The translations under genes and the position numbers were made by a program. This document shows, in pieces, positions 1,169 through 47,973 of a DNA stretch of 47,973 bases. The notes below the pieces were generated by a model that ran no database searches, was not told the origin of the DNA, and was given only the letters and a program-made list of their open reading frames with translations. Positions within the stretch are counted from its first letter, which is position 1, and each line of letters begins with the position of its first letter. The DNA comes from a virus, in the IMG/VR virus record IMGVR_UViG_3300033979_000465, positions 1 through 47,973 of that record; one strand, written 5' to 3'.

Positions 1169-1172
1169 AGTA

Positions 1173-1200
1173 TTGACATCTTAAAAATTACTGTTATACT
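1173..1200 (+). promoter_or_regulatory. Promoter of the TTGACATCT family
   Basis: TTGACA (1173-1178), a 16-base spacer beginning TCT, then TATACT (1195-1200). It starts 5 bases after the stop of the seam-spanning gene and drives the 1237 gene. Confidence 0.8.
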
Positions 1201-1236: not shown

Positions 1237-1548
1237 ATGATTAATAATCAATTAATATCAGAAAATTTTTTATTGTCTCCAATGGGGAATCCAGAAACAT
1301 CTGGATATAAAGAATTTGATGATGAATACAAAGGCTGGAAAATTTGGCTAGATTGTCCAAATGGTGGAATATTAGCTGTTGATATTCTTCATCACGAAAG
1401 GGGATTGTGGTTAGGGTATCCCACTACAGAAGAGTTTGAATACAACGATAATGAAGGTATTGTCAATTATGCCAGAAAAGTAATTGATGAAATTGAAAGT
1501 TTTTTGCAATCTTTGTCAGGTCAATTGTCATTATTTGAAATGGCGTAA
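1237..1548 (+). CDS. Hypothetical protein, 103 aa
   Basis: A small acidic soluble protein with no recognised family. The sequence has aromatic clusters (GWKIWLDCPNGG, GLWLGYPTTEEFEY) followed by a C-terminal helix (VNYARKVIDEIESFL). It has its own promoter at 1173-1200 and a weak CGAGG ribosome site before the ATG. It is sandwiched between two fibre-like genes, yet transcribed from an early-type promoter, so it need not be a structural protein. Confidence 0.75.
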   Translation: MINNQLISENFLLSPMGNPETSGYKEFDDEYKGWKIWLDCPNGGILAVDILHHERGLWLGYPTTEEFEYNDNEGIVNYARKVIDEIESFLQSLSGQLSLFEMA

Positions 1549-1564
1549 AACTTAATAAAATCTG

Positions 1565-1597
1565 ATACCATTGTACATAGGTGCAATGGTATTTTTT
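1565..1597 (+). terminator. Hairpin plus T-tract abutting a start codon
   Basis: ATACCATTG (1565-1573) pairs with CAATGGTAT (1584-1592) around a 10-base loop and is followed by a six-T run that ends directly before the ATG at 1598. It looks like a rho-independent terminator for the 1237 gene but also forms the whole leader of the next gene. Confidence 0.75.
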
Positions 1598-4132
1598 ATG
1601 CGATTAAAAGGTATTGTAGAGATTAAAATTACTGATATTGACGGCAATATTAAAGATTCAAGATTGCAAGAAAACATGATTTTTGATGCCTCATGGCTAG
1701 GGGTGTTGGGCAATGATGCAGTTAGGGGATATTTTAACCGCAGTATTAGCATAGCAACTGATAATACCAACCCAGTAGCAACCAATAATACAGTAACGGG
1801 TGTAATCGGTACTTGTTCTGTACCTGCTGGCGTTACTTCACCTGTATTTATAGAAAATGTTGACCCGCCATTTGGAACGCTCACAGGGCAAATATCACCC
1901 ACTGGAGTACAGCGCACATTTACCAGCGTGGCACTGACAGCGTTGGGCGGCGCAAATACTCAAAATATAGCATCTACTACCGCTTTTGCAAGATTAAAAC
2001 TTGATATACCCTGCACTCAAGGGGTAAATGATTTTGTAAATATTACTTACAGTATTCAGTTTTTGGATAATGTAGGTGACACATTGCCTAATGCAACTAT
2101 CAATAGATACGACTTTGGTAGAGCGATGTTTAGCCTGGGGAATTACCGCATGGGGAATATTTATTATAACTTTGCAAAACCTAATTTAGCCATGATTGCA
2201 ATACCTCCGGCTGGTATTTTTGATGCTACTACTGGGGCAATAAATACACCTAATTATAAATGGAATTATACAAAATCAATTAATAAAAATACCCAATTAG
2301 GAGCAATTATTAATGCTATTCCTCAAGGATTGACTAATAATAACTTACAAGCCTATGCAATGGGATTTTATGAATACGATAAAGCACCAATTCAAACGGG
2401 GTTTAAGCATGGCGCTAACTCACTAATACCATTTTTTGACTCTATTAATATTGCAAGCTCACAAGGCTCTGTGCATCTTGCTGGCACATGGACTGGCGGC
2501 TTTCCTGAATTTTACAAAATCACCTTTACCGATGCTGGCGCTACAGGTACAGCAACTTATAAATTCTCAGTATTTAAGCACATTGGATTTAATGACAACG
2601 CCTACACATTTAGAGATGTTGATAGTTTGTATTTACGCCCTAATATTCAATGGCACGCTAAATTACACGGGTGGAAAGAGGAAGACTTTGATAAACACCG
2701 ACTAAGTAATACTGAGATAGTGCAATATGATATTAATGGAATTTCGATTGTTGATGTTATTCATGGCACTTGCGTCAATTACGACGCTACTACAGCACCT
2801 GCTTTACTTTGTACTAATATTAGACAAATTGCAGTAGATACAACTAACAGATTAATTTATGTTGCTTGCAGAAATACAGGGTTATGGATCATTAATATTG
2901 GTGCAAATACTATTAGCAATCCATTAACATCTCCCTGTTATGGTTGCGATGTTGGTAGAAACAATATTGCAGTAGCTATTGTACAAGGTGGTTTATATCG
3001 CTCAACTAATTGGGCTGTAGCTCAAACTTTCACTTACACAGATATCACAAATAATTGGGCGTGTGTCCACTTTTTAAAAGCCGACCCTGAACACTCTAAC
3101 GATAGAATAGCTATAGTTGCACAAAATCCCGCAAATACAGCTAATAGAATTGTATGGCATCAATTTAGCGATAATAGTACAACAACGGGATTTGAAAACG
3201 CCAACCTTCAGATATATCCATCCAGCTTGGATGTTTCAGATGTTGGTAGCAAATGGGTTTATTTTATTCCACAAACATTTTTTAAAATTAATTTCAATGC
3301 GACTACATCAGTATCTAGCTGGGTATCTTTTTCTAAACCGTTAAATCATTCAATTTATGGGAATAGAAGATTTAGCAAGGCCAGCTTTTTAGGAGATAGT
3401 ATTTTTGTTCGAGGAGGCAATTTTCTCTTTGAGGGATTTCTTGTTGATGGTGCTATTACACAATCTATAGGAGGATTGCCAAATACTCAATCAGGCTTTA
3501 GTGATGCAGTTTCTTTTTGTTTGTCGGTACTACACCTTGACTCAGGAATAGTTTTAATTAACGGAGCACCAGAACCTTTAGCAAATGTATCTTTTAGACA
3601 AATATTCCCCAATGGCAATGCTAACTTAACAACCAATTATGGCTGGGACGGAGCAAATTGGATTAAAGATAATCCTAATTCAAAACCTACCCACAGTGAC
3701 GCACAACCGCTAATTAATGGATTAACAATTCGTTTTCAAGACGGTACAAATCCCCCTCACTTTGTACTCAATGAATTTCAGACTCAAGGGGTAAACTGGG
3801 GATTATTAAAAGATAATGCCACTGATTTAGTATGGAAATCTGCATGGTATTCTAGAGCTACAAATAAAGCCACAATTACACCTGTGGTACTTGCATCTAC
3901 TACAGTGGTTTTAGCGGCTGCTAGTGACCCGTATTTTAGCCGTATAGATAATGATTCAACAGCAATACCCCATCGGTTTTATCTCAATGGGGTATTGGTA
4001 ACAAAGGTATGGACTAATGGTACAGCGCCAGCACCTACAGAAGTTGGCTTAAATGCTAATGGTACTTTAACCTTCAATGCTGCTGATGTTGGCAAAACTT
4101 TGTCAGGTACTTATATTTGGATTGAAGTTTAA
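1598..4132 (+). CDS. Large tail-fibre or virion surface protein, 844 aa
   Basis: A large, mainly beta protein, rich in Asn, Thr and Gly with almost no charged runs, as in phage tail fibres. An N-terminal domain (MRLKGIVEIKITDIDG, then beta strands) leads to a central motif, HRLSNTEIVQYDINGI, and a propeller-like segment with repeated 'LIYVACRNTGLW'-type strands (about residues 350-470) of the kind found in phage fibre and spike proteins. The frame is open from a TTG at 1571, but that start lies inside the hairpin preceding the gene; the ATG at 1598 is preferred. It is the last gene of the rightward block that begins at the primase end. The host ligand is unknown. Confidence 0.82.
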   Translation: MRLKGIVEIKITDIDGNIKDSRLQENMIFDASWLGVLGNDAVRGYFNRSISIATDNTNPVATNNTVTGVIGTCSVPAGVTSPVFIENVDPPFGTLTGQISPTGVQRTFTSVALTALGGANTQNIASTTAFARLKLDIPCTQGVNDFVNITYSIQFLDNVGDTLPNATINRYDFGRAMFSLGNYRMGNIYYNFAKPNLAMIAIPPAGIFDATTGAINTPNYKWNYTKSINKNTQLGAIINAIPQGLTNNNLQAYAMGFYEYDKAPIQTGFKHGANSLIPFFDSINIASSQGSVHLAGTWTGGFPEFYKITFTDAGATGTATYKFSVFKHIGFNDNAYTFRDVDSLYLRPNIQWHAKLHGWKEEDFDKHRLSNTEIVQYDINGISIVDVIHGTCVNYDATTAPALLCTNIRQIAVDTTNRLIYVACRNTGLWIINIGANTISNPLTSPCYGCDVGRNNIAVAIVQGGLYRSTNWAVAQTFTYTDITNNWACVHFLKADPEHSNDRIAIVAQNPANTANRIVWHQFSDNSTTTGFENANLQIYPSSLDVSDVGSKWVYFIPQTFFKINFNATTSVSSWVSFSKPLNHSIYGNRRFSKASFLGDSIFVRGGNFLFEGFLVDGAITQSIGGLPNTQSGFSDAVSFCLSVLHLDSGIVLINGAPEPLANVSFRQIFPNGNANLTTNYGWDGANWIKDNPNSKPTHSDAQPLINGLTIRFQDGTNPPHFVLNEFQTQGVNWGLLKDNATDLVWKSAWYSRATNKATITPVVLASTTVVLAAASDPYFSRIDNDSTAIPHRFYLNGVLVTKVWTNGTAPAPTEVGLNANGTLTFNAADVGKTLSGTYIWIEV

Positions 4133-4140
4133 CATTCCCA

Positions 4141-4162
4141 GCCTTGTTCAGATTCTAGAATC
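4141..4162 (-). promoter_or_regulatory. ATTCTAGAATC box (minus orientation)
   Basis: Read on the minus strand this is GATTCTAGAATCTGAACAAG, a copy of the genome-wide palindromic box. It sits exactly at the stop of the 4162-4596 minus-strand gene and within the convergent gap after the fibre gene. Confidence 0.6.
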
Positions 4163-4640: not shown

Positions 4641-6566
4641 ATGTTAGCAGGAATTAATCTTAGTCAAAGGGCAAAAAATCAGTTAGACAAATTAATAGAT
4701 AATGCACTAGGAATAGATGAGGCTGATGGTACTTGTAAAAGCACTGTAGTGTCATTGCACCTATCACAAATGAGTGAATGGGGTGTAAGGGGCGGTGCTA
4801 TTCAATGGAAAGCAGTACAAGATTTTAATGGCATCAGGAAAGAATTTATAGCAAAGTTAATCAGCGATAATAATTGGAAGAATAAAGCCGAGCCGTGTAT
4901 GGCTCGAATGGTTGCAAAAGGCGAGGTTTTACTCGTTGCATTGCCTTCCAAAAATGGCTACAAACTTGATTATTTTACAGGTGGCAAAAACAATATAAAT
5001 CCTGATTACCATATCTTTTATAAAGAGAATGAGTATGGTGAAAATGAAATTGACGCGGTAGTGATTAAGCAAGCAACAGAGTTAACAAGAGAGGATGGAT
5101 TTATTGGTAATGCTTACGATGTAACAGGTTCGTTGATGAAAAAATGGCGAATTATATTTTTAACTGCTGACAAAATTTATATTTTTAAATTCCTGCAAGA
5201 ACCTGTAGATTTACGTGGCACTTATTCACTTTTAGAAAGTTTTACAAGCGGTGGTTATGCCCCGTTCTCAATGCAGAAACCGATTATTATTGATAATCCA
5301 TTTGCGCCGGAATTGCCTTGTGTAGTTTGCAAAAACATTGATATTGGTGATGATAAACCTGGTTTGGATGATTTTTATAAAATCAGGGATATGATCGAAA
5401 CTCATAATTCATTGCTGATAGATGCGGTGGAAAATTTACAGGTTTTCTACACACCAACAATGATTACTTCTAGACCCGCTGATGCGGTGCTAGAAGATTT
5501 TGAAAACTACAATGATAGAAAACAGGCTAGTTGGGCATCTAATAACGGCTTTTTCAGCCCTATTGCAAGGCGTTCCAGCATCCCTTATCGTATGCCTAGA
5601 GTTATTGGCAATGCCAAGCCCGATGAAAGAATGGGGTATATCGAACAGCCGGATACTATTAGTGGCGACCATAACCTATTTATACGCAATGATAGAGAGT
5701 TGATACATTGGGTTTTGGGTGGCGTTGATCCGCTTGGTATCTCCGCAAGTGCCACTTTTGGGGAAATCAAATCATTATTTGGCAGAATTGAAAATACAGC
5801 AAGCAAGAAAGCAGAAACATTGTTCGGGCAAAATGGATTATGTAAGCTGCTATCTTTAATCATCCTTGCAGAAGAGAGAAAATGTAAATTAGCAATTGGT
5901 GAATTTATCATTAATCAATATTTACAGGGTTCACCAATTGCCAATGCACTTATACAGCAAGAATTAAGCGATGAACAGTTTAGAGCATTGTATTTGAATA
6001 TTACCGATGAGTTAAATGCACAGTTACCGGGATTACCGCCACTTGGTGCGCGTGATTGTAGTTGGCGGTATACCAAAGATGTTTTTCAAAGGACTACAAG
6101 AGAACAGCAAGAGGCGAGTATAGTTTTTCGTAATGAGAGAGAAGACGGTATTTCTCAGGAAATCGCACTTGGTAAATTATACCCGAATATGAGCGATGAA
6201 GAGATACGGCAATCAATGTCAGGGTTTAGCCCTCGCGTTGTGTCGAATGCGTTAAATGGCATATCAGGAGCATTGGCTTTATATATGCAATTAGCACAGT
6301 TACCATCGCCCAATAACCCTGAAATCTCTTGGGCTTCTGAGCTTGGACTTGCAGAGATTGTGAGGCAAGGCATCATAACCCTACAAAAAGAGATGAATTA
6401 CAATATACCTGATTTTAAAGAATCACCAGATTATGACGAAATAAATGCAACTATCAACAGCACATTACAGCAATTAAACAATGTACGCGACTCAGTACCA
6501 ACCTCAACAGTACCCCTACCCAGCGCCACAGCCGCAGCAAGGCGACGCGCTAGATCAAATAGGTAA
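4641..6566 (+). CDS. Portal protein (head-tail connector), 641 aa
   Basis: Probable portal, the dodecameric ring at one capsid vertex through which DNA enters and leaves. Evidence: size (641 aa); position as first gene of the head operon; an N-terminal alpha/beta region; a central long-helix region (RDMIETHNSLLIDAVENL, about residues 250-270) as in portal stems; and an acidic, Gln-rich helical C-terminus ending in a basic tail (ARRRARSNR). No terminase lies next to it; terminase is about 22 kb away on the other strand. Its 3' end overlaps the next gene by 86 bases in another frame. I place it by general portal features, not by a single diagnostic motif. Confidence 0.75.
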   Translation: MLAGINLSQRAKNQLDKLIDNALGIDEADGTCKSTVVSLHLSQMSEWGVRGGAIQWKAVQDFNGIRKEFIAKLISDNNWKNKAEPCMARMVAKGEVLLVALPSKNGYKLDYFTGGKNNINPDYHIFYKENEYGENEIDAVVIKQATELTREDGFIGNAYDVTGSLMKKWRIIFLTADKIYIFKFLQEPVDLRGTYSLLESFTSGGYAPFSMQKPIIIDNPFAPELPCVVCKNIDIGDDKPGLDDFYKIRDMIETHNSLLIDAVENLQVFYTPTMITSRPADAVLEDFENYNDRKQASWASNNGFFSPIARRSSIPYRMPRVIGNAKPDERMGYIEQPDTISGDHNLFIRNDRELIHWVLGGVDPLGISASATFGEIKSLFGRIENTASKKAETLFGQNGLCKLLSLIILAEERKCKLAIGEFIINQYLQGSPIANALIQQELSDEQFRALYLNITDELNAQLPGLPPLGARDCSWRYTKDVFQRTTREQQEASIVFRNEREDGISQEIALGKLYPNMSDEEIRQSMSGFSPRVVSNALNGISGALALYMQLAQLPSPNNPEISWASELGLAEIVRQGIITLQKEMNYNIPDFKESPDYDEINATINSTLQQLNNVRDSVPTSTVPLPSATAAARRRARSNR

Positions 6567-22396: not shown

Positions 22397-22825
22397 ATGC
22401 AATTCCCCGTAGTTAGCCACACAGTAATCAATCATAAACTCCAAGTTATTTGGAGTCTAATAAATCAGCAAGTTACCCCTATTAATCACAGGGGTTTTGT
22501 TTTGCTTCTAGAATACAAACAAAATTTACCAGATAAAATAAAAGGACAAATTAACAGCAACTATTATTCAATTCAAGTTGACCATGATAAAAATGAAATT
22601 ACTATTAAATACACAGACTTTGCAGATGTGATTTTAGTGTTTGGGGATAAATCAACAGAAACCAGTCACGCCAATCAGCGTGGTAGAGTTAAAGTAACAG
22701 AATGGTGTACACGTCCAACACACAGAACTAAACGCCAAATACCAAGAGAAATACTAAAAAAATGCGACGAGGTTTTAGGGTTAATAATTAATAATTTAAA
22801 AAATTTGCTCAGTATTGCTGCATAA
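22397..22825 (+). CDS. Hypothetical protein, up to 142 aa, start uncertain
   Basis: The frame is open from ATG 22397. However, bases 22469-22500 form a terminator-like hairpin (CCCC/GGGG plus TTTTGTTTTG), and a TTG at about 22501 directly after it would match the hairpin-T-tract-start pattern of four other genes here. The shorter form begins LLEYKQNLPDKIKGQ. The rest is basic (WCTRPTHRTKRQIPREILKKC), consistent with nucleic-acid binding. An ATTCTAGAAT-like box follows at 22507. Confidence 0.55.
   Translation: MQFPVVSHTVINHKLQVIWSLINQQVTPINHRGFVLLLEYKQNLPDKIKGQINSNYYSIQVDHDKNEITIKYTDFADVILVFGDKSTETSHANQRGRVKVTEWCTRPTHRTKRQIPREILKKCDEVLGLIINNLKNLLSIAA
22469..22500 (+). terminator. Terminator-like hairpin inside the 22397 frame
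   Basis: CCCCTATTAATCACAGGGG pairs CCCC with GGGG and is followed by TTTTGTTTTG. It either terminates transcription of the upstream gene or shows that the 22397 start is wrong. Confidence 0.55.
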
Positions 22826-22853
22826 GATAAAATTAATTTGTGTTCTTTCAATA

Positions 22854-22875
22854 CCCCAGCAATGGGGTTTTATTT
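22854..22875 (+). terminator. Hairpin plus T-tract abutting a start codon
   Basis: CCCC (22854-22857), AGCAAT, GGGG (22864-22867), then TTTTATTT ending at the ATG 22876. One of four cases where a terminator-like hairpin forms the gene leader. Confidence 0.78.
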
Positions 22876-23166
22876 ATGCAATTATCTAAATTACAAGAAT
22901 TAAGAAAACAGCCTATTAATGACTTAAATACCATTGAATCAGTAGAGATTATTGATTGGGTAAATGGCAGGTTAACCGCTATTAATCATGCACTAAATAA
23001 AGCTACACTGTTAAGTAATGGCGATGAATTAGACCAGCAAGGGATAACAGACCTAAATCAATTTTGCAGTGATAGAATAGTCCTGTTTGCTAGTTCTTCA
23101 AATGAATTAGATAGAGGATTGCTTGAGGGATATTTAGCTGTTAAAAATTATATACTTAATGTTTAA
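22876..23166 (+). CDS. Small helical protein, 96 aa
   Basis: A helical acidic protein (SKLQELRKQPINDLNTIES; LLEGYLAVKNYILNV). The ATG at 22876 follows a hairpin and T-tract with no Shine-Dalgarno sequence; a longer frame from 22840 includes the hairpin and is rejected. It precedes the fibre module by 39 bases. No function recognised. Confidence 0.66.
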   Translation: MQLSKLQELRKQPINDLNTIESVEIIDWVNGRLTAINHALNKATLLSNGDELDQQGITDLNQFCSDRIVLFASSSNELDRGLLEGYLAVKNYILNV

Positions 23167-32099: not shown

Positions 32100-32131
32100 A
32101 ATTAGTATTAATCTTATCACGTCAAGTATAT

Positions 32132-32182
32132 CACAAAACGCAAATTTTGAACCCTAATACCACAGATTGGGTACGATGTCAA
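32132..32182 (-). promoter_or_regulatory. Promoter plus TCAAAATTTGCG operator, first copy
   Basis: On the minus strand TTGACATC (32182), a 17-base spacer, TATTAG (32159-32154) and then GGTTCAAAATTTGCGTTTTG. It drives the 31548 gene. The operator recurs three more times without gaps of sequence resemblance within 550 bases. Confidence 0.72.
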
Positions 32183-32202
32183 GAGTAATTTAAGGCATGA
32201 AA

Positions 32203-32223
32203 AAACCCGGTGTTATCCGGGTT
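32203..32223 (-). terminator. Terminator downstream of the tRNA-like RNA
   Basis: On the minus strand AACCCGG, loop ATAACA, CCGGGTT plus TTTTTT. It lies about 30 bases past the tRNA-like sequence, so the RNA has its own transcript end. Confidence 0.78.
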
Positions 32224-32250
32224 GGTTGTGCGGTCAAAGCAAACAATGAA

Positions 32251-32319
32251 TGGCAACGGTAGGAATCAAACCTACTATGTGGAAAATCCATGCCTTAACC
32301 AATTAGGCGACTATTGCCA
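32251..32319 (-). tRNA. tRNA-like RNA with a collapsed anticodon arm (possible degenerate tRNA)
   Basis: 69 bases on the minus strand fold as: acceptor TGGCAAT with GTTGCCA (7 bp with one T-G); D-arm GCC-TAATTGGTTAA-GGC including the conserved GG; and a T-arm GTAGG-TTTGATT-CCTAC. Only about 15 bases remain between D- and T-arms, too few for a 5-bp stem and 7-base loop; what remains is TGGA-TTT-TCCA. U8 is not in place. So it is a tRNA mimic, a relic, or an attachment site. A terminator follows, and promoters with operator are upstream at 32.4 kb. Confidence 0.45.
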
Positions 32320-32349
32320 AGCGGGGTAGGCATGAAGCCTCACCCCACA

Positions 32350-32374
32350 AACATCAGGGTTCTGATGTTTTTTA
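32350..32374 (+). terminator. Hairpin with T-tract, plus strand
   Basis: AACATCAG, loop GGTT, CTGATGTT, then TTTTTT. It lies between the tRNA-like RNA and the second operator copy, with an adjoining GGGGT/ACCCC inverted repeat at 32323-32346. Confidence 0.65.
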
Positions 32375-32389
32375 ATTATAGCACAAAAT

Positions 32390-32440
32390 CACAAAACGCA
32401 AATTTTGAACCCTAATAGCTTATCTTGTACACATTGTCAA
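32390..32440 (-). promoter_or_regulatory. Promoter plus TCAAAATTTGCG operator, second copy
   Basis: On the minus strand TTGACA (32440-32435), 17 bases, TATTAG (32417-32412), then the same operator. It probably drives the tRNA-like RNA. The downstream 24 bases are identical to the first copy. Confidence 0.68.
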
Positions 32441-32536
32441 GCAATTAACGAGAAATAGCTAAAAGCTATGTAAGGTAAATGTTTCAGGTAATTAGCTCAA
32501 ATTTTGCACACCATACCCGCTTAAAACCGCCAAGCG

Positions 32537-32704
32537 AAACGCAAATTTTGAACCCTAATAATATCTAAGATTATTGATTAAAGTAAAACCCTGCAAAATG
32601 CCTAAAAACCTTGCAGGGTAAAGTATTCAACCCATAAAACTAACTCATTATTATATTAACACGTTTAAAACCGTTGAGCGAAACGCAAATTTTGAACCCT
32701 AATA
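32537..32704 (-). repeat. Third and fourth operator repeats, candidate origin
   Basis: The 24-base repeat AAACGCAAATTTTGAACCCTAATA is split here as two copies at 32537-32560 and 32681-32704 (144 bases apart), each preceded by TTAAAACCG and AGCG. They have the -10-like TATTAG but only weak -35 matches, so they look like iterons rather than active promoters. A 9-bp inverted repeat ACCCTGCAA/TTGCAGGGT lies between them (32588-32619). Confidence 0.6.
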
Positions 32705-32986
32705 TCTTAGAAGATATGAATTAGAAAAGTAGCAGAAAAATTATTAGTTGGCGTTTAAATTAATTTTAAGGGCTATCGCCTCGTGTAACACCTAAATATA
32801 GTCAAAGAAGATTCAACAGGCATTGCCAGACAAAATAACAAGCACTCAGAGAATAGCTGGCAATGTGGATGAATAAGTTTATAATTTAGTATAAATTCTA
32901 CAACGGCTTTTATTTTGAGTTTTAAGGCTTGCGAGTAGCCTAAATGATGATTTGTATGGATGAGGTGGTTTAAGCGGCTATGTGAG

Positions 32987-35094: not shown

Positions 35095-36093
35095 ATGAAA
35101 ACTTTGTACATAGTCAGGGGATGCCCTGGCAACGGGAAAACCACATTGGCTAATAATATTCAGGATGCTATCAAGTCCATTGCGGCTGATGATATGCCAG
35201 GGCTATATGTTGATGGTGTTTATCAACAGCACTTACAAAAAGATAGCCATAATTGGTGTTTAAGAATGTGCGAAGAATTTATGAAACGCAGTGAGGGTAT
35301 TGCCGTACACAACACCTTTACCCGTATTTTCTACATCAAGCCATACATCGAACTAGCAAACCGCTATGGTTACTCAGTGCATATTATCCACAGTGAAGCG
35401 GTGTTGACCGCAAGTGGACGCACTACAGACACCCATAACGTACCAGCCGATGTGTTAGTATCTATGCGTAACGGTTGGGAGAATTGGGACGCATTACCCA
35501 AGATGGGCATGACTCCTAAAGATATTGCAGAACAGATAGAGAAAGCCAAAGCGTATCCTGATGCCATTATCTTTGATATGGATGGGACGATTAAGCGTAC
35601 AAAGTCGGGTGAGACATTTCCCCGGTCACCAGATGACTGGCAGTTAACAAAAGAATTTGAAGCTTTCAATGCTTGCGAATTTATGTACAGTGGAAATAAT
35701 TTTTATTTAATATCCAATCAACGAGGATTAACAGGAGGACAAAAAACAGAAGATTTCCTAGACAATGAACAAGCCAGTTTAAAAATTTATCTTGAGGAAA
35801 ATTGTGATATTTATTTTCAAGATTCTTATTTCCTGACGCATAAATATGCGTTAAAAGCCGCTAATGGATGGGAACGCATAAATGGTAATTTTGCCAAACC
35901 ATCACCCGCAATATTTGATTTAATCCACAACAGCAGCCGCAAAAACTATTGGATTATAGGCGATGCCCACACCGATGACCGTTCGGAGGATTGGCAATTT
36001 GCCCAAAACTGCCAGAAAGCCTACCCACACCTAAGCATAACCTACATTCCGATTGAGTTAGCAGCTTATGTTTACAAATTGCACCATACGTGA
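35095..36093 (+). CDS. Polynucleotide kinase 3'-phosphatase, 332 aa
   Basis: Two-domain end-healing enzyme. N-terminal kinase: P-loop GCPGNGKTT at residues 9-17 followed by helical lid region (HNTFTRIFYIKPY). C-terminal HAD-type phosphatase: FDMDGT at residues 160-165 (D161 nucleophile, D163), with KSGETFPRSPDDWQL, SNQRG and a terminal GDAHTDD motif. The order kinase then phosphatase is that of T4 Pnk, and the phosphatase resembles PNKP-type enzymes. It repairs 5'-OH/3'-phosphate ends in RNA or DNA, for example after host anticodon-nuclease or CRISPR damage. A ligase partner is not visible in the window. Confidence 0.85.
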   Translation: MKTLYIVRGCPGNGKTTLANNIQDAIKSIAADDMPGLYVDGVYQQHLQKDSHNWCLRMCEEFMKRSEGIAVHNTFTRIFYIKPYIELANRYGYSVHIIHSEAVLTASGRTTDTHNVPADVLVSMRNGWENWDALPKMGMTPKDIAEQIEKAKAYPDAIIFDMDGTIKRTKSGETFPRSPDDWQLTKEFEAFNACEFMYSGNNFYLISNQRGLTGGQKTEDFLDNEQASLKIYLEENCDIYFQDSYFLTHKYALKAANGWERINGNFAKPSPAIFDLIHNSSRKNYWIIGDAHTDDRSEDWQFAQNCQKAYPHLSITYIPIELAAYVYKLHHT

Positions 36094-36131
36094 TATGGTA
36101 TAATAATAACGCTAATGGATTCCTAAACTCA

Positions 36132-36157
36132 ACCGCCCCGCAAGGGGTTTTTTATTT
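36132..36157 (+). terminator. Hairpin plus T-tract abutting a start codon
   Basis: CCCC-GCAA-GGGG (36136-36147) and TTTTTT, four bases before the ATG at 36158. Identical to the 33741 terminator. Confidence 0.8.
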
Positions 36158-36406
36158 ATGATTACGCTTAAACTTACTGATTCGGAGGCTAAAAGCCTTG
36201 ACTTATTGCTAGAGCGTACACCACACAAGGATACACAGCAATGTGTTGTACATAATAAGCTAGTGCAGTCATTAGGAAGCGACGCTCACTTTATGGCACG
36301 ATTAGAACCAAATATTAATCTATCCAGTGCTGATGTAGAGTTAATATTATCACTGATTAAATTTGTAGAGCAGTGTGATTATATTATAATGCACCTGCAC
36401 AATTAG
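36158..36406 (+). CDS. Small hypothetical protein, 82 aa
   Basis: A helical protein (MITLKLTDSEAKSLDLLLER; PNINLSSADVELILSLIKFV) with no recognised family. It begins directly after a terminator hairpin and T-tract with no Shine-Dalgarno sequence. After its stop a degenerate box (ATTCTAAAATTAATT, about 36452) and then the next promoter follow. Confidence 0.65.
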   Translation: MITLKLTDSEAKSLDLLLERTPHKDTQQCVVHNKLVQSLGSDAHFMARLEPNINLSSADVELILSLIKFVEQCDYIIMHLHN

Positions 36407-41218: not shown

Positions 41219-41231
41219 AGAGGTCAATGTG

Positions 41232-42410
41232 ATGGGCTGTAAAATCATTGATTCAATGAAATATGTTAAAAGCCGTGTGTATAAATCTGATGTATTGGTA
41301 GATTTAAGCTATGCGTGTATGATTGCTAGATTGCCTGTGCTGATGATTGGTAATCCAGGAACAGGTAAATCGCATACCAGTAAAATCATTGCGGGTATGT
41401 TTGGTAAACGCGATGAGGACTGGTTTTATCAATCAATCACCGCTAAAACTTCACCTGAAAAGTTGTTTGGTGGTTTAATCGCTGAAAAGATGTTGCAAGG
41501 GATTGAGGAATATAATCTTGCCGTAGGCGCAGCTTCTAAAGTAGGTAACATTTTTGATGAGTTGTATAAAAGTCAGCACCCCGCTATGATGAATGCTCTA
41601 CTTAATTACTTTGACGAGCAGCCCACTATTTTTAGCGGTGGACGCAACGTAACACCCGATTGGCACTGGTGTTTTAACACAACCAACTTTGAAGATTTAC
41701 CCGAAGATTTACGTTTTTGCCCTTTATGGGACAGACAAGGTGCTAAGTTTCAAGTAAAGGATCTAAATGACGTTGAATCCAAAAAAGCTTTGATTATGTG
41801 CATGAAACAGGATAAAACACCTGCAACAGCACCTACCTTATCCATTGCCGACCTTGAATTGGCACGGAAAACAGCAATGGCAATTGAGGTAACAGGGGAA
41901 ATAATTGATTTATTCTATGAAAAGGTGCTACCAATCCTCAAAAAACATTGCTACATCAGCCAACGGAAAATTAACTCCCTATTCATAGGCAAACCCGGAC
42001 ACCCTAGTATTTTACAAAGCATTGCTTATATAAGCGGTGGCGTAATGAGTGATGAGGTATTGCGCTATGTACCTTATTTTTGCTGGCAAGATGTCAGCAG
42101 CTACGATAAAGTAATTGATGAGGTTGCCAAAACTATTGTATCTCCAGTGATTAGCACTTATAGGGAAATTATCAGCAATGTAGAGGATATGATAGAAAAT
42201 GTAGTAGCCAAAAAGTATAGCCACATAGAAGCTATACAACAGCAAAAATTTCTTACAGACAGCATCACGGCGAGATTATCCGCTTATGATGACAACCAAA
42301 AGAAAAAAGCCCAACCGCTAAGGCTGCAATTAGGAAAGCTAGTAAAAACACTTAACGCAGAGATTGATAACCTAGCGCCCAAAACAACCCTAGATAATAT
42401 GGAATTTTAA
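41232..42410 (+). CDS. RavA-like MoxR-family AAA+ ATPase, 392 aa
   Basis: AAA+ ATPase of the MoxR group: Walker A GNPGTGKS at residues 40-47, Walker B-like NIFDE at 106-110, SPEKLFGG before it, a sensor-type FNTTN, then a winged C-terminal region. The whole resembles E. coli RavA (MoxR class with VWA partner) in order, except for a short N-terminus. The next gene encodes a VWA-domain protein, as RavA and ViaA are paired. In cells such pairs remodel protein complexes; the phage target is not known. ATG 41232 follows a box and AGAGG. Confidence 0.83.
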   Translation: MGCKIIDSMKYVKSRVYKSDVLVDLSYACMIARLPVLMIGNPGTGKSHTSKIIAGMFGKRDEDWFYQSITAKTSPEKLFGGLIAEKMLQGIEEYNLAVGAASKVGNIFDELYKSQHPAMMNALLNYFDEQPTIFSGGRNVTPDWHWCFNTTNFEDLPEDLRFCPLWDRQGAKFQVKDLNDVESKKALIMCMKQDKTPATAPTLSIADLELARKTAMAIEVTGEIIDLFYEKVLPILKKHCYISQRKINSLFIGKPGHPSILQSIAYISGGVMSDEVLRYVPYFCWQDVSSYDKVIDEVAKTIVSPVISTYREIISNVEDMIENVVAKKYSHIEAIQQQKFLTDSITARLSAYDDNQKKKAQPLRLQLGKLVKTLNAEIDNLAPKTTLDNMEF

Positions 42411-45261: not shown

Positions 45262-45275
45262 TCAAATATTGGCTA

Positions 45276-45318
45276 TTGACATCTAACCCTTGTAAGTGCT
45301 ACAGTGTGGCTGTATACT
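45276..45318 (+). promoter_or_regulatory. Double promoter before the primase-helicase gene
   Basis: TTGACATCT (45276) with CTACAG after 17 bases; TTGTAA (45290), 17 bases, TATACT (45313-45318) overlaps it. Either may be used for the gene at 45355. Confidence 0.65.
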
Positions 45319-45354: not shown

Positions 45355-47529
45355 ATGAATGAAATTCCAGTATTTGACATCCGCAATTTTACAGAGCAAT
45401 TAGTACCAAATCCAAAGGAAAAAAATAAATACATTTGCCCCAATTGTAGTGGGCATAATTTAGCAATTGACAAGAAAACAGGGGCTTATCAGTGCTTTAA
45501 CGGATGTTCTAATAAAGAGGTCCGGGAAGCTGTCAAGCCCTGGGCAGAGGTCAAGGAAGAGTTAAGGGAAAACGGTTTCAAAAGTGCAGCTAGACCAAAG
45601 ATTATGACGACATTAGCAGTTAATAAACCTAAAGAGATTCAACAAGAGGACTATCAAATATTAACGCAAGTATACGGCGTTGATTTCCCTAAAATTACGA
45701 ACTTAGGGATGGAAAGATATATTGATTTTGTATATTCTCCTACGCAAATAGTGCGTAGGATGGAAGAAAAAACAGCGGCTGGATGGAAGAAAAAGCCAGG
45801 GGACAAAAAAGGTATAAGACCCTGGCATTGTGATGATAAGGGTGTATGGCATGAGGCAAAAGGCGATAATATATGGCAACCTTACCAATGGCAAGATGTA
45901 GTAAATGCTGGTAAGGGTAAATGGGTGCTATTTGTTGAGGGGGAAAAATGTGTCGAGTACGCAAGGGTGAAATTTAATCTTGTGGCTACAACCTTTATGG
46001 GTAGTGCATGGGATGAAACGATGTCTGATTGGTTTAATAAAATGCGTGAAATTGGTGTGGCTGGCGTGATAATGTGGCCAGATCATGATAAACCAGGCTA
46101 TGAAAAAGCTAAGAAGGTTAAGGAAATTTGCAATAAATTAAATATTTCATATATTCAACTAGACCCGCTTAGAATATGGTCGGCAATGCCAGATAAAGGG
46201 GACATTGCGGATTATTGGTTGGCTCACCAAAAACAGGATAAAAAAGTAATTTGGGATATTTTAGTTAGCTCAATTCACTCTTATAATGAAGAAAAACTAG
46301 ACCCAATTAGAACAGCCATTATAGAGGCTATGGACAAGAAGATGCCAGAAGCAAAGCAATTTCTGACATTGTATCAGGAAAATAATGATCCATTGTATCA
46401 GCAGATGTTGAAGCAAATCCTCATCGGACAAGGATACAATCAAAATATTCTTGATAGCATTTTATCAGGGGTAAACATGAACCCTAAAAGACCGCCAACG
46501 GTAATGACTGGTCAAGAATTTATTGATTATGTGTTCCCTACAAGTGGCTGGAAATATCCAGAATTAGTAATTGATTGTGGGGTGCAAATCGTAAGTGGTT
46601 TACCAGGGGCAATGAAGACCACTTTTAGCTATGACATGGGGTTTCATTATGTTAATAATTTGCCGTTTTTGGGGGAAGAATTAAGCATTGATGCAAGGCT
46701 AGAAAACAAGAAATTATTAATAATTAACAGTGACCAGCAATCACAGGAATGTCAAAGTTTAATCAAACAATCGCCACTAGCCTTAAAGGCAATTCGTGAT
46801 GGTAAATTGCATATCATTGGTGGTAATCCAGAAGAGGAAAAATGGAATTTAAAATATCTTCCTTGGCTTGAGGAACAGTGCAAAAAGTTCCGTTACACCA
46901 TGATGATTATTGACTCATACAATAGTATTCACAATCATCTACCAGACTGGAATGAGAACTTATCAACAGCGGCACAGGGTATCAATGCTTTAAGGGCATT
47001 GGCTGAAAAATATAATATTGCAATCATCGTCATCCATCACGACGGGAAAAGAGAAGATGGAAGTGCAACTATTAAAACCAGAGGGAATACAGCTATTCCC
47101 GGCGCGGCTTCTGCTGTAATGAGTTTGACTGAAACCAAAGAAGATAAAAATGGAAACCGCGACCCGTTAATTAGATTTTTAGAAATATCGAAATTAAGAG
47201 GCGGTGCGTGTGGAAAGATGGTATTAAAATTTTCACCTGAGAAGCGTTCATTTGACGTTTTGCCGGATGGAAACCCACAAAACAGAGAAACGCTCAATAA
47301 CATTGCTAATAGCTTATTTACCAGCAAATTTACAGGCTATGACGAGCATTCATTTGAGGATTTAAGACGTGGCTTTGTCGCTGGCGTTGGTGGCGATAGA
47401 AGTCTGTTTTTAGCCCGTGTCCTGACTAAATTAGAGCAAAGGGGACAAATACAAAGGGTAATGCGGGGTGATAATGTTTATTACAGGAATCGCTCTGTAC
47501 CCAACGTTAAAGTAGAGGATTTAATTTAA
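45355..47529 (+). CDS. Primase-helicase (zinc finger, TOPRIM, RecA-like), 724 aa
   Basis: A bifunctional replication protein. Zinc finger: C28-P-N-C31 and C47-F-N-G-C51. TOPRIM: E195 in VEGEKC and D243, D245 in WPDHDKPG. RecA/RepA-like helicase: Walker A GLPGAMKTT at 415-423, Walker B MMIIDSYN with D520, HHDGK, and a C-terminal winged helix. It makes primers and unwinds DNA at the fork, with the polymerase supplied by the host. The order matches plasmid and phage primase-helicases of the RepA-hexamer kind. A short gap separates it from the hairpin before the seam-spanning gene. Confidence 0.88.
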   Translation: MNEIPVFDIRNFTEQLVPNPKEKNKYICPNCSGHNLAIDKKTGAYQCFNGCSNKEVREAVKPWAEVKEELRENGFKSAARPKIMTTLAVNKPKEIQQEDYQILTQVYGVDFPKITNLGMERYIDFVYSPTQIVRRMEEKTAAGWKKKPGDKKGIRPWHCDDKGVWHEAKGDNIWQPYQWQDVVNAGKGKWVLFVEGEKCVEYARVKFNLVATTFMGSAWDETMSDWFNKMREIGVAGVIMWPDHDKPGYEKAKKVKEICNKLNISYIQLDPLRIWSAMPDKGDIADYWLAHQKQDKKVIWDILVSSIHSYNEEKLDPIRTAIIEAMDKKMPEAKQFLTLYQENNDPLYQQMLKQILIGQGYNQNILDSILSGVNMNPKRPPTVMTGQEFIDYVFPTSGWKYPELVIDCGVQIVSGLPGAMKTTFSYDMGFHYVNNLPFLGEELSIDARLENKKLLIINSDQQSQECQSLIKQSPLALKAIRDGKLHIIGGNPEEEKWNLKYLPWLEEQCKKFRYTMMIIDSYNSIHNHLPDWNENLSTAAQGINALRALAEKYNIAIIVIHHDGKREDGSATIKTRGNTAIPGAASAVMSLTETKEDKNGNRDPLIRFLEISKLRGGACGKMVLKFSPEKRSFDVLPDGNPQNRETLNNIANSLFTSKFTGYDEHSFEDLRRGFVAGVGGDRSLFLARVLTKLEQRGQIQRVMRGDNVYYRNRSVPNVKVEDLI

Positions 47530-47550: not shown

Positions 47551-47579
47551 CTACCATTGTGATAAATGGTAGTTTTTTT
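47551..47579 (+). terminator. Hairpin plus T-tract abutting a start codon
   Basis: CTACCATT (47551-47558) pairs with AATGGTAG (47565-47572), followed by seven Ts that end directly at ATG 47580. It ends the primase-helicase transcript and serves as leader for the seam-spanning gene. Confidence 0.8.
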
Positions 47580-47973
47580 ATGCCTAAAAAACCCCGTGAT
47601 TTTAATCAAATTCCTGGTACTTTCAAAAGTTTAAAACCAGGTGACAAAGTATCATTTAGAATCCCTGGAGAAGAGTTAATAGAAATCCCTGGAGAGCTTT
47701 GTACCAAGGACTTAGAGATACCTGATATTATCAATTTATCGCCTGAAAGAAGAGGTAGAGAGGAGGGGTCAAACATAATTTATGATCCTGATCAAACATA
47801 TAATTATCTGTCAGTCAGTGAACGGGAAAACAGAAGTTTTCAATTATTGCCAGCTTACATAAGAGAAGAGCCAGAATTAAAGCGCACTGTATACGGATTT
47901 TGTAGCGATAATTCACCCTCTGGATTTTGGGAAGTAGTGGTATCAGAAGGGGAGTCAGCAACATTTATTAATT
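47580..47973 (+). CDS. Virion surface or tail-fibre protein, 5' part of the seam-spanning gene
   Basis: The ATG at 47580 opens a frame (MPKKPRDFNQIPGTF) that stays open to the window end and continues at base 2 of the window to a stop at 1166-1168, giving 435 residues in all. The N-terminal 50 residues are rich in Pro, Gly and Lys, with a PGD/PGE/PGEL pattern. There is no Shine-Dalgarno sequence. Instead the start codon follows a CTACCATT/AATGGTAG hairpin and seven Ts, an arrangement shared with three other genes here. It follows the primase-helicase gene by 50 bases. A structural role is inferred from the C-terminal repeats and the neighbouring fibre gene. Confidence 0.8.
   Translation, partial: MPKKPRDFNQIPGTFKSLKPGDKVSFRIPGEELIEIPGELCTKDLEIPDIINLSPERRGREEGSNIIYDPDQTYNYLSVSERENRSFQLLPAYIREEPELKRTVYGFCSDNSPSGFWEVVVSEGESATFIN
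47720..47973. repeat. Terminal direct repeat, right copy (circular closure)
   Basis: Second copy of the first 254 bases. The only mismatch (A at 47846, G at 127) is a synonymous Leu change, TTA against TTG. There are 126 identical bases before it and 127 after it, which fits a circular contig broken at a polymorphic site by a k=127 assembler (inference). Confidence 0.97.

Follow-up and report, generated by a model that had tools for sequence, protein, structure and literature searches.

Start codons directly behind terminator hairpins in an orphan phage genome: probable ordinary terminators, butted genes, and read-through

Results

Four ATG start codons in the window (the whole 47,973-nucleotide stretch of viral DNA analyzed here) lie hard behind a hairpin and T tract. 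We consider it probable that the hairpins are ordinary terminators of the preceding units, that the next start came to be butted on the T tract through insertion and compaction, and that the downstream genes are reached by read-through and translated independently of a Shine-Dalgarno (SD) sequence.

With its last 254 bases (47720-47973) an exact repeat of positions 1-254, the 47,973-base record represents a complete, circular viral genome, and the gene starting at 47580 continues past the junction to 1168. Only distant protein matches were obtained, all to other phages: the head protein at 4641 matched Synechococcus phage S-EIV1 (30%), the primase matched Synechococcus phage S-CBS4 (23%), and the protein encoded at 1598-4132 matched Microcystis phage Mic1 (25%). 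On the basis of these matches, the virus is most likely a phage of cyanobacteria, an orphan without a close known relative. Searches for relatives of the four downstream genes, the terminase, the head protein, and the primase yielded one distant IMG/VR contig (L004) and none in the genome collections. The replication region also encodes a MoxR-type AAA ATPase (bpMoxR; 41229-42410) and a polynucleotide-kinase-like protein (35095-36093), and a gene-free stretch at 32130-32730 carries iteron-like repeats (AAACGCAAATTTTGAACCCTAATA) and is a candidate replication origin. In addition, a palindromic site, ATTCTAGAAT, often longer as TTGTTT..ATTCTAGAAT..AAACAA, occurs 19 times with at most one mismatch, against 3.2 occurrences expected. 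These sites, which include those at 4152, 7370, 10916, 22505, 25871, 26538, 29787, 36988, 38813, 40026, 42470, and 45243, are mostly intergenic and have the appearance of phage operators.

All four junctions singled out by the initial annotation were confirmed by a strict terminator finder. At each, a G+C-containing stem-loop is followed by a T-rich tract on the sense strand, as in an intrinsic terminator, and all are on the plus strand. The terminator at 1565-1597, which has a 12-bp stem (ATACCATTGTAC..GTGCAATGGTAT; 1565-1592, -15.5 kcal/mol) followed by six T's, lies 16 nt past the upstream stop codon, and the ATG of an 844-amino-acid (aa) ORF at 1598 is 5 nt from the stem. That at 22853-22875 (ACCCCAGCAATGGGGT TTTATTT; stem 22853-22868, -9.8 kcal/mol) lies 27 nt past the upstream stop and adjoins the ATG of a 96-aa ORF at 22876, 7 nt from the stem. 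The terminator at 36135-36157 (GCCCCGCAAGGGGT TTTTTATTT; stem 36135-36148, -9.2 kcal/mol) is 41 nt past the upstream stop, with the ATG of an 82-aa ORF at 36158, 9 nt from the stem. Finally, the terminator at 47551-47579 (CTACCATTGTGATAAATGGTAG and seven T's; stem 47551-47572, -11.6 kcal/mol) follows the stop codon of 45355-47529 by 21 nt, and the ATG of a 435-aa ORF at 47580 is 7 nt from the stem. Since the intervals between hairpin and ATG are too short for any promoter at all four sites, the downstream genes would have to rely on read-through transcripts (or on unmapped promoters). A suggested fifth case, the TTG at 22501 behind a hairpin and T-rich tail (22475-22501, plus strand), was not supported: this codon lies within the ORF 22397-22825, which has an in-frame upstream ATG at 22397, and a search for a homologue to choose between the two starts found none.

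The reported lack of a canonical SD sequence was likewise borne out. The best pairing of the region from -22 to -3 with the anti-SD sequence is only -4.7 to -7.4 kcal/mol, and at all four sites it must use bases from the 3' side of the hairpin. At 22876 and 36158 the 3' arm has no more than SD-like G runs, and none is well placed at 1598 or 47580. Initiation without an SD sequence is normal for this phage and applies to about half of its genes; by one crude criterion, with hand-picked starts, an SD core was found for 22 of 48 ATG genes, against 25 of 37 in lambda. The 5' arms of the hairpins at 1565-1597 and 47551-47579 both contain TACCATTG, and TTTTTTATGC recurs at the two start codons. The idea that these hairpins are copies of one element proved weak (the 8-mer TACCATTG occurs 5 times versus 2.5 times expected), and the string TTTTTTATG was not enriched in the window (2 found versus 2.4 expected).

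Abutments were counted, with the same finder for all samples, as cases in which an ATG no more than 9 nt from a terminator stem begins an ORF of 60 aa or more. Four of the 23 terminators in the window abut a start in this sense, compared with 6 of 444 in 240 IMG/VR stretches (~2 Mb; Fisher's P = 8e-4) that were chosen for holding terminator-like patterns, with the seed sites excluded, and are not a random sample. The corresponding counts were 5 of 87 in eight cyanophage stretches (P = 0.02 versus the IMG/VR sample) and 0 of 19 in lambda. When each terminator of the window was given a uniformly distributed position within its gap, the expected number of abutments was 1.2, and the probability of obtaining four or more was 0.02 in this test, which was devised post hoc. 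Short gaps therefore account for part of the enrichment; given the latter probability and the rarity of abutments elsewhere, compaction alone may not explain it fully. The adjacency is, in sum, correctly observed and mildly enriched.

Upstream of the first junction lies a small gene of 103 aa (1237-1548, plus strand) situated between two tail genes. A gene that is inserted between the genes of an operon and carries a promoter and a terminator of its own is called a phage moron. The gene at 1237-1548 has both, a promoter at 1173 (TTGACA-16-TATACT) and the terminator at 1565, and is inserted between genes that are adjacent in phage Mic1. Since Mic1_26 and Mic1_25 overlap, with no gene between them, the 1237-1548 unit and its hairpin separate here what are two neighboring genes of the tail cluster, the homologues that we call gA and gB. 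No family or homologue was found for the moron-like gene itself.

The promoter of this gene (1171-1200, plus strand) is of a phage type, TATTGACATCT-N-TATACT, and matches the sigma-70 promoter at 11 of 12 positions. TATTGACATCT, which forms the -35 region of promoter-like sites, has 9 exact copies on the plus strand of the window and 10 on both strands (1171, 31467 on the minus strand, 34141, 36477, 37018, 38781, 40080, 41168, 42414, and 45274); together with a -10 box, there are 10 exact copies and 15 with one mismatch, versus 1.4 expected. The sites are probably one regulated class of phage promoters. Several of them are followed by at least one gene and, behind it, a terminator, and the one at 45274-45305 (plus strand) serves the primase/helicase unit, which ends at the 47551 hairpin. 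Where the next unit owns a TATTGACATCT promoter, a gap of 40 to 132 nt follows the terminator (36949, 38691, 38755, 40042, and 41131); the exception is 42432, where the promoter precedes the stem and 21 nt follow it. Ahead of the 36135 hairpin, TGGTATAAT (36096-36104, plus strand) might be a promoter of the extended -10 type; this candidate is weak, such sites numbering 4 in the window versus 5.1 expected by chance. An inverted repeat, ACCATA..TATGGT (36078-36104), overlaps it; this could be a regulated promoter of the 82-aa gene, with a -10 motif that occurs at chance frequency.

Homology bears on two of the four starts. The gB gene (1598-4132, plus strand) is homologous to Mic1_25 of the Mic1 tail-gene cluster (blastp E = 3e-48), and when gB is aligned with Mic1_25 and a phage ORF of contig L004, the N termini of all three line up at the initial Met. 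By this alignment the true start of gB is 1598, and a later true start codon, which the initial annotation had named as a finding that would overturn its proposal, does not apply to this gene. The gA gene, which starts at 47580 (47580-47973, plus strand) and crosses the circular junction to 1168, is likely the homologue of Mic1_26 (blastp E = 1.7e-4, 20% over the last 280 aa). Both proteins have 435 aa, which fits a gA start at 47580 but is no proof of it, and the local match misses the N terminus. The other two ORFs that start at terminator tails, at 22876-23166 (96 aa) and 36158-36406 (82 aa), both on the plus strand, are orphans for which no homologue was found. None of the four downstream genes matched an endonuclease family, and the notion that the small genes of the window are endonucleases was dropped for want of family support. 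A search of 386 cyanobacterial genomes for gB and the 1237-1548 gene returned nothing useful.

One of the two explanations originally offered was that the T-rich tail replaces the ribosome site, which would make the hairpin an attenuator of translation and termination together. We found no positive support for this explanation. Among 105 distinct CCCC-loop-GGGG-TTTTTT-ATG sites in IMG/VR, 14 have an ATG that begins an ORF of 60 aa or more, compared with 8 of 77 TTTTTTAGT (AGT) controls and with 8 and 12 of 105 in the other two frames. Since the ORF rate at the T6-ATG sites is no higher than that in the controls, these counts lend no support to the T tract as a special start signal. The pattern hairpin-G4-T6-ATG gave no hits in 98 cyanobacterial genomes, although it is narrow, too narrow to exclude the layout in the hosts. 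The minimum-energy structures of the leaders contained no obvious competing anti-terminator fold, and no Rfam match was found.

Annotated genes of other cyanophages also abut terminators: the portal gene of Mic1 (2909), gp004 (3148) and gp029 (18689) of S-CBS4, and gp042, gp047, and gp063 of S-CBS2. In S-CBS2 (L271; 32976, 34705, and 49013), these genes encode EndoVII, HNH, and EndoVII proteins, respectively, with the ATG 5 to 7 nt past the stem. All three terminator-abutting genes of this phage are annotated endonucleases, on a background of 5 genes among the 65 in the stretch that are HNH or EndoVII genes by annotation or nucleases of this kind by our own count (hypergeometric P = 2e-4, for a pattern noticed post hoc). 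In S-CBS4, the EndoVII profile match of gp003 (L008; 2591-3091) runs from an ATG at 2591 directly behind a hairpin and not from the annotated GTG at 2654. The gene probably starts at 2591, with the CxxC-containing N terminus belonging to the EndoVII family profile. Two environmental IMG/VR genes, one EndoVII-like (L143, 8503) and one of the SegE-type GIY-YIG family (L083, 8498, minus strand), also start at hairpin-TTTTTT-ATG. A general rule placing the start of every phage EndoVII gene at a terminator was rejected, as seven further EndoVII relatives have either ordinary leaders or a terminator that lies tens of bases off; the placement of endonuclease genes behind terminators, noticed post hoc throughout, is a tendency in some phages.

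Discussion

Under the reading that we favor, the 1565 hairpin would close the inserted moron-like gene, and the 47551 hairpin would close the primase/helicase unit and shield the following tail gene from the 45274 promoter. The downstream genes, for which no promoter stands between hairpin and ATG, would be translated from transcripts that pass the terminator. Passage could occur by leaky termination, by ribosome-assisted read-through (the upstream stop being 16 to 27 nt away), or by late antitermination, to which an unmapped late promoter would be the alternative. Initiation at the butted ATGs would then be SD independent, as for about half of the genes of this phage. In E. coli, a trailing ribosome represses terminators near the upstream stop codon, and terminators reach full efficiency beyond about 27 to 30 nt (PMC4824070); if coupling in the host is similar, ribosome-assisted read-through could help at two or three of the sites (16, 21, and 27 nt). 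Translation on read-through transcripts was the other of the two explanations offered by the initial annotation, and it is the better supported of the pair, given the lack of room for a promoter, the true start of gB, and the large share of genes in this phage that do without an SD sequence. Termination at the hairpins in vivo, the route of read-through, and the division into early and late expression classes are what we infer from the sequence.

Several points weigh against this reading. Ribosome-assisted read-through was measured in E. coli and not in cyanobacteria, and it would not apply to the 41-nt site, which is outside the range. A hairpin of -9 to -15 kcal/mol located 5 to 9 nt before the AUG, inside the ribosome footprint, should hinder initiation on RNA that has read through. 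Moreover, homology lends no support to the starts of the two orphans among the four downstream genes, and the N terminus of gA is unmatched.

It seems to us unlikely that the stem acts in both processes, stopping transcription and also, in RNA that has read through, obstructing or sequestering the ribosome site, so that opening it would raise both transcription and translation of the next gene. The 3' arm does fall within the SD window at 36158 (AAGGGG) and 22876 (TGGGG), the region from -22 to -3 pairs with the anti-SD sequence at the energies given above, the adjacency exceeds the gap-placement expectation, and T4 provides precedents in I-TevI, segB, and mobE, whose ribosome binding sites (RBSs) are sequestered (PMC2988022). 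Nevertheless, the arms at 1598 and 47580 are not SD-like at the right place, the minimum-energy leader structures lack an obvious competing fold, homologues usable for covariation were not found, and the hairpin is absent before the gB homologue in Mic1. We are just as doubtful of the broader idea that in some cyanophages a terminator flush with the start codon thins the transcript and throttles SD-free initiation, as a dosage control of endonucleases, morons, and low-copy structural genes. It is very unlikely that the U-rich tail itself acts as an SD-independent ribosome entry element. The four T-rich tails stop 0 to 4 nt short of the ATG in a phage with SD-less genes in abundance (about half), and S-CBS2 and S-CBS4 share the layout, but viral hairpin-TTTTTT-ATG sites open ORFs no more often than controls, the admittedly narrow G4-T6-ATG pattern is missing from the cyanobacterial genomes searched, and the literature doubts S1-driven initiation in cyanobacteria (PMC5397173).

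Two further readings concern the transcripts and the starts themselves. If transcription started, or RNA were cleaved, in or at the hairpin, the mRNAs would be leaderless or have very short leaders, and the hairpin would never stand before a translated start. Leaderless starts are reported for cyanobacteria (PMC5397173), and sequences similar to extended -10 elements precede 1598 (TGGTATTTT) and 47580 (TGGTAGTTT); however, 22876 and 36158 have no such element, good -35 boxes are lacking, and no -10 box is consistent across all four sites, which leaves this reading highly improbable. The hairpin-adjoining ATGs might instead not be the starts, or some of the ORFs might not be genes, as the absence of homologues for the 22876 and 36158 ORFs and the doubtful TTG at 22501 would allow. 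This is quite unlikely in view of gB, whose alignment with two homologues begins at the first Met, and of the S-CBS4 EndoVII gene, which fits its family profile (from profile position 13 on) only from the hairpin ATG.

The hairpins are thus likely to be ordinary terminators of the preceding units and not a novel type of ribosome signal. If the layout has been read correctly, terminators inside phage gene clusters mark sites of gene insertion, and insertions can abut the start of a neighbor that has no SD sequence, an arrangement tolerated where SD-independent initiation is common. That endonuclease genes recur directly behind terminators, in S-CBS2 and S-CBS4 as well as in two environmental contigs, suggests a rule for where such genes settle or survive. 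There is also a warning for gene callers: the S-CBS4 endonuclease gene probably begins 63 nt upstream of its annotated start, which was likely misplaced because a terminator stands where an SD sequence would be expected before the true ATG.

Known systems share parts of this layout. In T4, mobE and segF have terminators at their 5' ends, of which that of mobE halts about 30% of transcripts; for I-TevI, segB, and Aeh1 mobE, the RBS is sequestered by a hairpin (PMC2988022). The S-CBS2 endonuclease genes that abut terminators are reminiscent of T4 mobE and segF. The T4-type genes share with the window a terminator or hairpin at the very start of the downstream gene, a need for read-through, and a likely low level of expression, but they encode homing endonucleases and retain an SD sequence within the hairpin or next to it (PMC2988022), whereas the four genes of the window are not recognizable as endonucleases. 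With the ribosome-repressed terminators of tR2 and pyrBI (PMC4824070), the window has in common the short spacing between stop codon and hairpin (16, 21, and 27 nt); its 41-nt site is outside the range, and the repression was measured in E. coli. The T7-like phage A-4L likewise has a terminator in the structural region with the next gene close to the stem, its tail tubular A gene following the capsid gene terminator and starting about 10 nt past the stem. In T7, unlike in the window, the gene after the capsid terminator keeps a normal leader and RBS. Finally, the 1237-1548 gene is like phage morons in having its own promoter, the 1565 terminator, and a site between tail genes that are contiguous in Mic1; it differs from them in that its promoter belongs to the phage's own repeated type and in that the downstream gene begins at the T tract without a separate RBS.
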